64,000 nucleotides of DNA from Collimonas arenae (GTDB lineage: Bacteria; Pseudomonadota; Gammaproteobacteria; Burkholderiales; Burkholderiaceae_D), in assembly GCF_001584165.1 (NCBI RefSeq), contig NZ_CP013233.1, positions 496,001 through 560,000 on the forward strand. The letters run 5' to 3'. A program made the position numbers and the translations under genes. Below the pieces are notes generated by a model. That model searched no databases. It saw only the letters and a list, made by a program, of their open reading frames with translations, and was not told the origin of the DNA. Numbering within the stretch: the stretch's first letter is position 1; every line of letters begins with the position of its first letter. Shown piece after piece: positions 61,409-64,000 of the stretch.

Positions 61409-62497
61409 TTAACCGAAGCAGACTGCGTAAGCCGGCGGCAGGTTGCCGCTTAGTGTCTGCCAGGTATCGCCACCATTGTCGGACAGCCAGGCGCCACCGG
61501 TGGTCGACGCCATCAGCAGCGTGCGGCCATCATCTGCAACCGCCAGGCCGTGCCGATATATCAGGTCATAGCAATGCTGCTGGGGCAGGCCGTTGCGCAG
61601 CACGCTGAACGATCTGCCGCCGTCAACGGTGCGAGTGACCGCAAGGGCGGCGTCCACCGGAATGCGGCGCTGATCTGCCACGGCGGGCACGAACCACGCG
61701 GTGTCGCCATCGTTCGGATGAACCGCCACTGCGAAACCGAAATTCGACAACGGCACCTCGTTGATTTCCTGCCAGTCGACGCCGTCATTGGCCGAGCGCC
61801 AGATGCCATTGTGATGCTGGCACCACAATTTATCCGGCGAACCGTTGGCCCGCACGATCCGATGCGGATCCTGGATCCGCTGGTCGTCGGCCCGCTCCGG
61901 CGGCATGTAGGTGGCGCGCATGCCCTTGGCGCTGGGTGACCAGCTGGCGCCGCCATCATGCGTGACCCAAGCGCCGCCGCAAGAGACGCCGACCAGAACA
62001 TGACGGCTGTCGCGCGGATCGACGCAAATACTGTGCAACCCCGGCACGTCGTAGCCGCCGCCGAACCATTCGCTGCGCTCGGGCGCATCCCACAAGGACT
62101 CTACCAAGGCCCATGAAGCGCCGCGGTCAGGCGAGCGGAACAAGCCGCCCGGCAGGGTTCCCGCCCAGAGTACCCCAGGCTCGTCGGCGCCGCCGCACGC
62201 CAGCGACCAGATGAACCTGAGCGTCCAGTCAACCGGGTCCGCACTGTCTGCCTGCTTGATTGGATAGCTGGGAGCGGTAATTTCCGTCCATTGCTCGGAG
62301 CCGGCATCGCGGCGATGCAGTTTTGCGCCGAAGTGTCCGAGACTGAGCGCTGCGTAGATCGCGCCGTCGCGGGGATCCGGCAGCACCATCGTGACCGGCT
62401 CGCCGAGAAATGCGGTGGCCGCGAAGTCCCATTTTCCTGCGCGGCGAACCAGTTCGAATAATCCCTTGCGAGTGGCAATCCAGGCGCGGTCGCTCAT
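61409..62497 (-). CDS. Asp-box (BNR) beta-propeller protein
   Basis: A 362-residue protein related to sialidase/YCF48-type propellers. At least five Asp-box motifs (SxDxGxxW) are spaced through it: RSPDRGASW, THDGGASW, RSANDGVDW, TVDGGRSF and LSDNGGDTW. No signal peptide or membrane helix is seen, so it is probably cytoplasmic; true sialidases are secreted, and the Arg triad is not evident, so I do not call it a sialidase. The ATG at 62497 lies 2 bp after the MoaD-like stop, and its Shine-Dalgarno GGAGGT is inside the end of that gene. The two are thus coupled. Confidence 0.85.
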   Translation of the reverse strand: MSDRAWIATRKGLFELVRRAGKWDFAATAFLGEPVTMVLPDPRDGAIYAALSLGHFGAKLHRRDAGSEQWTEITAPSYPIKQADSADPVDWTLRFIWSLACGGADEPGVLWAGTLPGGLFRSPDRGASWALVESLWDAPERSEWFGGGYDVPGLHSICVDPRDSRHVLVGVSCGGAWVTHDGGASWSPSAKGMRATYMPPERADDQRIQDPHRIVRANGSPDKLWCQHHNGIWRSANDGVDWQEINEVPLSNFGFAVAVHPNDGDTAWFVPAVADQRRIPVDAALAVTRTVDGGRSFSVLRNGLPQQHCYDLIYRHGLAVADDGRTLLMASTTGGAWLSDNGGDTWQTLSGNLPPAYAVCFG

Positions 62498-62499
62498 GA

Positions 62500-62769
62500 T
62501 CAACCTCCAGAAAGTGCTTGTAGAACGTGAACTGTACTGCCGACCCCAAGCGGGACGTCGAGATGGACACGGTCACGTACCGTATGACCATCAATGAAAA
62601 TCGCGACATTCGGGCGCAGGCTACCCTGGTCATCGAGTAAATAACTGCGCAGGCGCGGATTGACTGAGAACGCAGTCTCCAGCCCGGCACGCAGCGTGGT
62701 CGCATCGGTCTGAATCTCCGGCACATCGGTAAAACGCGCCAGTTGCCGGGTAAAAATGAGAGTCGCCAT
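62500..62769 (-). CDS. MoaD/ThiS-like ubiquitin-fold protein
   Basis: An 89-residue beta-grasp protein: MATLIFTRQLARF, then LRAGLETAFSVNPRLRSYLLDDQGSLRPNVAIFIDGHTVRD, ending in ALSGG. The C-terminal Gly-Gly is the feature needed for adenylation and sulfur transfer or protein conjugation in this family. No MoaE, ThiG, ThiF or other E1-like gene lies near; the only partner is the downstream propeller gene. The two terminal Gly codons GGA GGT also form the ribosome binding site of that gene. Confidence 0.85.
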   Translation of the reverse strand: MATLIFTRQLARFTDVPEIQTDATTLRAGLETAFSVNPRLRSYLLDDQGSLRPNVAIFIDGHTVRDRVHLDVPLGVGSTVHVLQALSGG

Positions 62770-62920
62770 GGCGTCTCCGGAATTGTTGGCCGGGCCGCGT
62801 CAATACCGCGGTCACAAGGCTTCAGTATAGATTGAAACGACATTTTTGCCGTGCTGTCAGGATGGCAAGAAATGCAGGTTTTCCAGTCCCGTTTGTTTTT
62901 TTTGAGAGGAGGATTGTCAT

Positions 62921-62926
62921 TATAAT
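62921..62926 (+). promoter_or_regulatory. -10 box before the MocR gene
   Basis: TATAAT at 62921-62926; no clear -35 at normal spacing. Transcription would start near 62933. Confidence 0.45.
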
Positions 62927-62957
62927 TGGGCGTCATCGATCCCTGCGAGCGCCCCGC

Positions 62958-64000
62958 TTGAAAACCTCCCGCCGCCAACCGCTATACCAACGCCTGGCCG
63001 AGCAGGTGACTGCTTCCGTGCGCAGCGGCGTATTGCGACCTGGCGACCGTGTCAGTTCGGTACGGCAGGCCAGCCAGCAACATGGAATGAGCATCACGAC
63101 TGTGGTGCGTGCCTATGAGTTGTTGGAGAGTAGCGGGGTCATCGAAAGCCATCCGCAGTCGGGTTATTTTGTGCGGCCGCAGTTTGGGCGGGCCGGCGTC
63201 GCTGTGGCGCGGACGTTGTTATCCGAGCAGGATTCTCCGGCGGAACCAGGGCGGTCGGAGCCGCTACCGGTGTCGGCGGAAGTGGATGTCAGCCGACACG
63301 TCTTGGCGACGCTTAAATCGATACATCAGAACGACGCGATTCCGCTCGGCTCACCGTACCCTGATCCGGCCTTGTTTCCGGCGCGTCGCATCAGTCAATA
63401 TAACGGCGCCATCCTGCGCAGCGGCGGCCCGCTTGGGGTGCTGGACGATTTGCCGCCGGGCCATCCGGATCTGATCCGGCAGATCGTCAGACGCCATCTG
63501 GAAACAGGGTTGAGCATCGATCCCGGCGATGTGGTGATCACCGTTGGCGCTACCGAAGCCATCAATCTGTGCCTGCAGGCGGTGGCCAAGGCTGGCGATA
63601 CGATTGCGGTGGAATCGCCGACCTTCTATGCGATGCTGCATGCGATCGAACGGCTCGGTATGCGCGCCATCGAAATACCGACCGATCCGCGCCTGGGAAT
63701 GGATATTGGGGCCTTGAAAGCCATCATGCAGACGCAGCCGATTGCTGCCTGCATGGTGATGCCGAATTTCCAGAATCCGCTGGGCTTCGAAATGCCTGAG
63801 GAAAACAAGCGGCAACTGGTTGAGCTGGGTGCGCGCTACGACATGCCGATCATCGAAAACGGCGTCTACAATGAGCTGTATTTCGGCACCGCCCATCCGA
63901 GCGTGCTGAAGGCCTATGACAAGCGCGGCATGGTGCTGTACTGCTCGTCATTTTCCAAGAGCCTGACCTCAGCCTATCGTATCGGCTGGACCTTGCCGGG
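62958..64000 (+). CDS. MocR-type GntR regulator/aminotransferase, 3' end cut by window
   Basis: A fusion regulator, first 347 residues visible and open to the window end. The winged helix domain is at about 1-75 (RQPLYQRLAEQVTASVRSGV; QHGMSITTVVRAYELLESSG). The PLP-fold class I aminotransferase domain follows (GATEAINLCLQAVAKAGDTI; ESPTFYAMLHAIERLGMRAI; PNFQNPLGFEMP; SSFSKSLTSAYRIGW, where the Lys of SFSK is the PLP lysine). I chose the TTG at 62958 because no ATG or GTG fits upstream. It is divergent from the MoaD-like gene. The regulated pathway is not known. Confidence 0.88.
   Translation, partial: MKTSRRQPLYQRLAEQVTASVRSGVLRPGDRVSSVRQASQQHGMSITTVVRAYELLESSGVIESHPQSGYFVRPQFGRAGVAVARTLLSEQDSPAEPGRSEPLPVSAEVDVSRHVLATLKSIHQNDAIPLGSPYPDPALFPARRISQYNGAILRSGGPLGVLDDLPPGHPDLIRQIVRRHLETGLSIDPGDVVITVGATEAINLCLQAVAKAGDTIAVESPTFYAMLHAIERLGMRAIEIPTDPRLGMDIGALKAIMQTQPIAACMVMPNFQNPLGFEMPEENKRQLVELGARYDMPIIENGVYNELYFGTAHPSVLKAYDKRGMVLYCSSFSKSLTSAYRIGWTLP

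Follow-up and report, generated by a model that had tools for sequence, protein, structure and literature searches.

A widespread gene pair joining a MoaD-like ubiquitin-fold protein to an Asp-box beta-propeller in Collimonas arenae: a possible sulfur carrier and its acceptor

The window analysed here, a stretch of 64,000 nucleotides of the Collimonas arenae genome, carries two adjoining open reading frames on its minus strand. The upstream gene (62500..62769) encodes an 89-residue beta-grasp protein of MoaD/SAMP1/CysO-like type with the C-terminus QALSGG, referred to below as the Ubl. After 2 nt it is followed by a gene for a 362-residue Asp-box beta-propeller (61409..62497), which starts with an ATG at 62497 and ends at 61409. 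The sequence GGAGGT (62503..62508, minus strand), 5 nt ahead of the propeller ATG, provides both the terminal Gly-Gly codons of the Ubl and a Shine-Dalgarno sequence. The closest named relatives are from Collimonas. A preliminary description of the locus as an 89-residue Gly-Gly protein coupled to a 362-residue propeller is confirmed, with five Asp boxes counted. Two neighbours of the pair were tested in the window, one a dicarboxylate symporter and the other a divergent protein with GntR and class I aminotransferase parts (62832..63998, plus strand, continuing past the window edge), which we take to be of the MocR type. A relative of the latter is present in 7 of 109 clustered loci and the gene probably lies outside the module. 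As had been described, no gene for MoaE, ThiG, an E1, a JAMM protein or a sulfurtransferase adjoins the pair in the window, and neither moaE or other moa genes nor thiG stand beside the Ubl gene.

The structure model of the Ubl is confident (pLDDT 90.9) and matches 17 PDB chains with an E value of at most 0.001, with SAMP1, a MoaD-related protein, CysO, MoaD and Urm1 among the top matches; its nearest folds are SAMP1, the best match with a TM-score of 0.82, and sulfur carriers. By sequence it scores 21.6 bits against the Pfam ThiS model (gathering cut-off 22.5) and 30.8 bits against its best NCBIfam model, SAMP1 (NF041918, cut-off 60), and PF02597 is listed in a precomputed column for some close relatives. 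The Ubl has both the beta-grasp fold and the C-terminal Gly-Gly of the ThiS/MoaD superfamily. The tail is strongly kept across 151 distinct paired loci, 150 of which end in Gly-Gly and 132 in QALSGG, including loci in which the Ubl is the second gene. The exception is a single Nonomuraea record (L145), whose Ubl lies beside a propeller and ends in VLPALA. The preliminary description had named a relative lacking Gly-Gly beside the same neighbour as evidence against its proposal, and this locus is the only such case among the 151.

The propeller was assigned to the Asp-box beta-propellers on the basis of its five clear boxes (S/T-x-D/N-x-G-x-x-W/F repeats), a confident structure model and its closeness to one solved structure, 3b7f (reut_b4987 of Ralstonia eutropha JMP134), which is a putative glycosyl hydrolase carrying BNR repeats. 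Foldseek ranks 3b7f first, followed by GH74 enzymes. We know of no function for 3b7f. Relatives of the propeller are named exo-alpha-sialidase or WD40/YVTN/BNR-like, and three propeller genes appear interrupted, with matches that are fragmented or divided between frames (L067, L148, L208). Comparison of propellers from 146 paired loci, a set with near-copies left in, with 13 unpaired propellers revealed 34 columns kept in both. These columns include K11, H155, H212, Q227, H229, R278 and R315, whose conservation is at least 95% in the paired and at least 90% in the unpaired propellers. Another 14 positions, R10, F30, H55, E72, G118, F120, G146, S156, G192, D210, P221, T290, T332 and W337, are kept in the paired propellers only and may make up the interface with the Ubl. 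A sialidase requires a Tyr/Glu pair and three Arg. Glu and Tyr are absent from the 34 shared columns, which hold only two Arg, and the GH33 residue set is accordingly missing from the propeller. A sialidase identity was rejected on these grounds, and the annotation is probably wrong. No signal peptide was seen by eye in the propeller.

The association of the two genes extends well beyond Collimonas. All 80 of the best Ubl relatives among genome contigs (the best 80 of 560 confirmed) adjoin a propeller gene on the same strand, with an estimated gap of -4 to 114 nt. A survey of the class found a Ubl match in 29 of 274 genomes, the window's own included, and a propeller beside the Ubl in 22 of 29 examined loci, the window's locus not counted. 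In 200 genomes of the order, the Ubl was present in 38, a strong propeller match in 41 and both in 37 (Fisher p 1e-34, uncorrected for relatedness); a forty-second propeller genome with only a weak match (G324, E 5e-29) was dropped. The two genes lie within 201 nt of each other in all 37 genomes that have both. One genome has the Ubl alone (G321) and four were scored as having the propeller alone (G289, G312, G397, G466), among which G289 on inspection carries a diverged Ubl, ending in GAIAGG, behind its propeller. Neither gene occurs in G280, the only further genome sampled from the genus. A survey of 398 genomes of the phylum gave a Ubl match in 94, with an adjoining propeller in 17 of these, the window's included; 29 further Ubl loci examined in this survey comprised 11 paired and 18 unpaired ones. 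The propeller was found in 28 of the 398 genomes, with the Ubl adjoining in 17 and absent beside it in 11; because most of the propellers behind the search profiles were paired, both the order and the phylum counts are biased towards paired ones. The 151 paired loci from all surveys together sit in Pseudomonadota, with two loci in Actinomycetota. The three actinobacterial propeller records comprise an Arthrobacter pair with Gly-Gly, the Nonomuraea pair without it, and an unpaired Streptomyces BHT-5-2 propeller. The genome check for conserved adjacency proposed in the preliminary description thus found the association (80/80 relatives; 22/29 loci; 37 of the 38 Ubl genomes among the 200), and its view of the pair as lying outside the usual molybdopterin and thiamine synthesis is strongly supported by the adjacency surveys, the 151 paired loci and the propeller tree described below. 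Existing annotations already list the two as neighbours under the names 'MoaD/ThiS family protein' and 'exo-alpha-sialidase'. A Pseudomonas aeruginosa plasmid, pZYPA1927, carries the pair under these two names (L272, 3711-5107), and the pair is also found in Cupriavidus metallidurans CH34 (L146).

The last two Ubl codons read GGAGGN in 67 of the 80 relatives, all of which have the Ubl first, whereas GGA serves only 14 of the 316 other Gly codons in the same Ubl genes. One stretch thus supplies both the Gly-Gly codons and the Shine-Dalgarno sequence of the propeller gene. The estimated gap to the propeller start is at least 17 nt in all 13 relatives with other codons, and in three of the 67 with GGAGGN (L011, L038, L055). 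This role does not account for the glycines themselves, because they are also kept where the gene order is reversed.

Ubl-first order is found in 114 of the 151 pairs and propeller-first order in 37. In a rapidly built tree of 103 propellers, with SH-aLRT support only and some long branches, the states of Ubl upstream, downstream or none need 7 changes, compared with 44 when labels are shuffled. Propeller-Ubl order is scattered over several deep branches, and the propellers in Ubl-propeller order all fall into a single large clade except for one stray (L105). This pattern indicates that the two genes swapped places without losing their adjacency. The pair is an old module, and the retention of neighbours despite reversed order makes it very likely that Ubl and propeller act as one functional unit. 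By contrast, plain co-transcription of unrelated genes maintained by inheritance has almost no likelihood left: most of the studied loci come from one order, but both gene orders occur, in many families, with adjacency retained on reversal and no third gene kept equally, and neither gene occurs in the second genome sampled from the genus.

Both partners also occur outside the pair. The 18 unpaired Ubls of the phylum survey belong to families f238 and f258 or their kin and end in PAIAGG, with one extra residue behind the Gly-Gly in 17 of the 18 (L224-L241). A CysO-like Ubl is present in many sampled genomes of these two families. Outside this group, some unpaired Ubls lie among sulfur genes: L131 adjoins an E1-rhodanese gene, L211 has a JAMM gene, an E1-rhodanese gene and a cysteine-synthase-like gene (the last assigned by eye) nearby, and L275 has cysteine synthase, M67 peptidase and rhodanese genes nearby. 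The neighbours of a further one, L271, include no annotated sulfur gene. On a plasmid of Streptomyces MBT27 (L274, 1502-3705), a MoaD/ThiS-family gene touches a gene of the SUMF1/EgtB/PvdO type as well as galE, with a phage portal gene close by; this may be another carrier with an unusual partner. Ten of the 11 phylum-survey genomes with a propeller but no neighbouring Ubl belong to one family (f254), and the Paracoccaceae plasmid loci L141, L142 and L147 group in the clade of unpaired propellers of this family. No Ubl was found with far propeller relatives in Roseomonas and on two haloarchaeal plasmids. Since the unpaired propellers keep the same polar set, the core propeller function appears to run without a neighbouring Ubl in some lineages, and with 11 of 28 propeller genomes in this state the Ubl is not always needed.

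Clustering of neighbours in 109 loci, and then in 86, gave no third conserved gene of wide spread. Several of the larger clusters are antisense frames over the pair itself, and the others cover at most 14 of the 109 or 10 of the 86 loci; in 26 of the 86 the clustering missed the propeller by preferring long antisense frames, and these loci stay in the denominator. No E1, rhodanese or other sulfur-protein gene was recognised by eye in the 25 and 30 largest clusters. A comparison of 11 loci, from 20 first chosen, with Rfam found no riboswitch near the pair, only a tRNA. PADLOC gave no match to either protein, and PHROG one weak propeller match (E 7e-4) to a family of unknown function. One lead did emerge. 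Genes for an ECF sigma factor with DUF6596, a YCII protein and a VOC-like protein (PF06983) lie near the pair in 6, 7 and 6 of the 86 clustered loci, respectively (L126, L138, L207, L272, L303, L307 and others); we take the DUF6596 sigma factors to be the ECF42 group. Across 78 propeller genomes, a set that leaves out ten unpaired f254 genomes, G170 and G324, DUF6596 occurs in 41 genomes at 51 places. Of these, 11, one in each of 11 genomes, are no more than 10 kb away from the propeller, by distances read by hand from coordinates, compared with about 0.25 expected by random placing. Two of the 11 genomes (G312, G397) have no Ubl that we could find, and the sole DUF6596 place of the window's genome (G000:C1:2168410) is far from the pair.

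The Collimonas genome holds other components of carrier chemistry. There are six ThiF-family matches, one of which (L084) passes the MoeB subfamily model while falling under the TIGR02355 equivalog cut-off. A separate MoaD is encoded with MoaE at G000:C1:2095770, and another ThiS-family match lies at G000:C1:670252, adjoining frames that look ThiG-like by eye, so the Ubl is the third carrier-like protein of this genome. The ThiG-like sequence (L002, 1826-2973) is spread over two frames, and so is possibly broken or misassembled. A further ThiF-family match is an E1-JAB fusion gene (G000:C1:4378898-4379995; L086, L270), which adjoins a gene that looks patatin-like by eye and contains the sole Prok-JAB match of the genome. 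Its E1-JAB part matches the PADLOC E1-E2 and JAB models, and so it appears to belong to a defence locus of the CBASS type.

The reading that we favour, tentatively and with somewhat less than even confidence, is that the Ubl carries sulfur in the manner of MoaD, CysO and SAMP1, with the propeller as its acceptor enzyme. In its favour are the nearest folds of the Ubl, the kept Gly-Gly tail, the MoeB-type E1 of the genome, the sulfur genes near some unpaired Ubls and the polar set of the propeller. The Ubl would need no trimming, because it ends in a free Gly-Gly. The cell's MoeB-like E1 would adenylate it, and a sulfur donor would convert its end to a thiocarboxylate. The tail would then reach the conserved Lys/His/Gln/Arg set, which may line a pocket of the propeller, and the propeller would hand the sulfur to a small molecule, taking the place that MoaE, ThiG or BexX holds in its own pair. 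As no third gene recurs widely, such a carrier would probably use a shared E1, here a MoeB. The preliminary description had offered a sulfur carrier with a scaffold: a carrier with a partner fits better, but the propeller is more readily seen as an acceptor enzyme than as a scaffold, because its near-invariant polar set is kept even without a neighbouring Ubl. Its other proposal, a modifier with its target, gained no support of its own. Counting against a sulfur carrier, 77 of the 94 phylum-survey genomes with a Ubl match have no adjoining propeller; these Ubls are of other types so far as examined. Also weighing against it are the lack of a recurring sulfur gene near the pair, the unpaired propellers with their polar set, the single paired tail lacking Gly-Gly, the Ubl scores below the Pfam and NCBIfam cut-offs, and the shortfall of the E1 against TIGR02355.

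The main rival, which we consider rather unlikely, is that the Ubl is a non-covalent subunit whose tail plugs into the propeller and completes or regulates its active or ligand site, with no part played by sulfur or an E1. Conservation of the wider tail and not of Gly-Gly alone would suit this, as would the Nonomuraea pair and the lack of an E1 or sulfur gene recurring nearby, and adjacency with coupled translation would suit a 1:1 complex. However, in 150 of the 151 loci the tail still finishes in the two glycines required for E1 chemistry, with nothing behind them. Less probable still is a SAMP-like protein modifier for which the propeller serves as substrate adaptor, target or reader. SAMP1 is both the best fold match and the best NCBIfam model, many propellers are adaptors, and K11 is near-invariant; conjugation to Lys 11 is nevertheless weakened because this residue is kept equally in propellers without a neighbouring Ubl, no JAMM gene adjoins the pair in the window, and the one Prok-JAB match of the genome lies in the defence-type gene. 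A propeller that works as its annotation says, as a sialidase or some other glycosidase, with the Ubl incidental, we regard as quite improbable: the names and the GH74 enzymes ranked behind 3b7f speak for it, and the conserved residues and apparent lack of a signal peptide speak against it.

More boldly, the Asp-box propeller could represent a class of acceptor enzymes not previously linked to ubiquitin-like sulfur carriers, with a sulfur product of its own, in some lineages within an ECF sigma/YCII/VOC cassette that may serve a stress or detoxification response; we give this a fair but clearly less than even chance. To our knowledge, ubiquitin-related sulfur carriers serve only a few known acceptors. 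A carrier-propeller pair kept in many species would extend the range of acceptors by a further fold and hint at an overlooked sulfur metabolite, or else at a novel role for ubiquitin-like proteins in bacteria. Our results also suggest that many genes now called exo-alpha-sialidase are misnamed, and a module of two small proteins is easily testable. The novelty of the pair is provisional, given a limited literature search: term searches revealed no pair of this kind in PMC1779556, which gave no hit for a propeller, BNR or sialidase, in PMC1949818, where a single unrelated legend matched, or in PMC2948915.

Among known systems, the pair most resembles MoaD-MoaE in joining a small Gly-Gly carrier, matched in fold, to a putative acceptor enzyme in adjacent genes with the E1 encoded elsewhere; it differs in having an Asp-box propeller where MoaE would stand, in a genome with its own moaD-moaE. 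CysO-type clusters combine a ThiS/MoaD-like protein with a JAB peptidase, an E1-rhodanese and often a cysteine synthase (Iyer 2006, PMC1779556). The CysO structures 3dwg and 3dwm match the Ubl, and clusters of this kind contain two of its unpaired relatives, L211 and L275. The pair itself has no adjoining JAMM, E1-rhodanese or cysteine synthase gene, and the paired Ubl has a free Gly-Gly end, whereas 17 of the 18 unpaired Ubls sampled from one family have one further residue. The CysO chain of the BexX/CysO complex (4n6e) is likewise a fold match to the Ubl. BexX, a ThiG-like barrel, receives sulfur from CysO; here the partner is a propeller in place of a barrel. SAMP1 of Haloferax volcanii provides the closest fold, although the Ubl scores under the SAMP1 model cut-off, is bacterial, and comes with a propeller as its partner.
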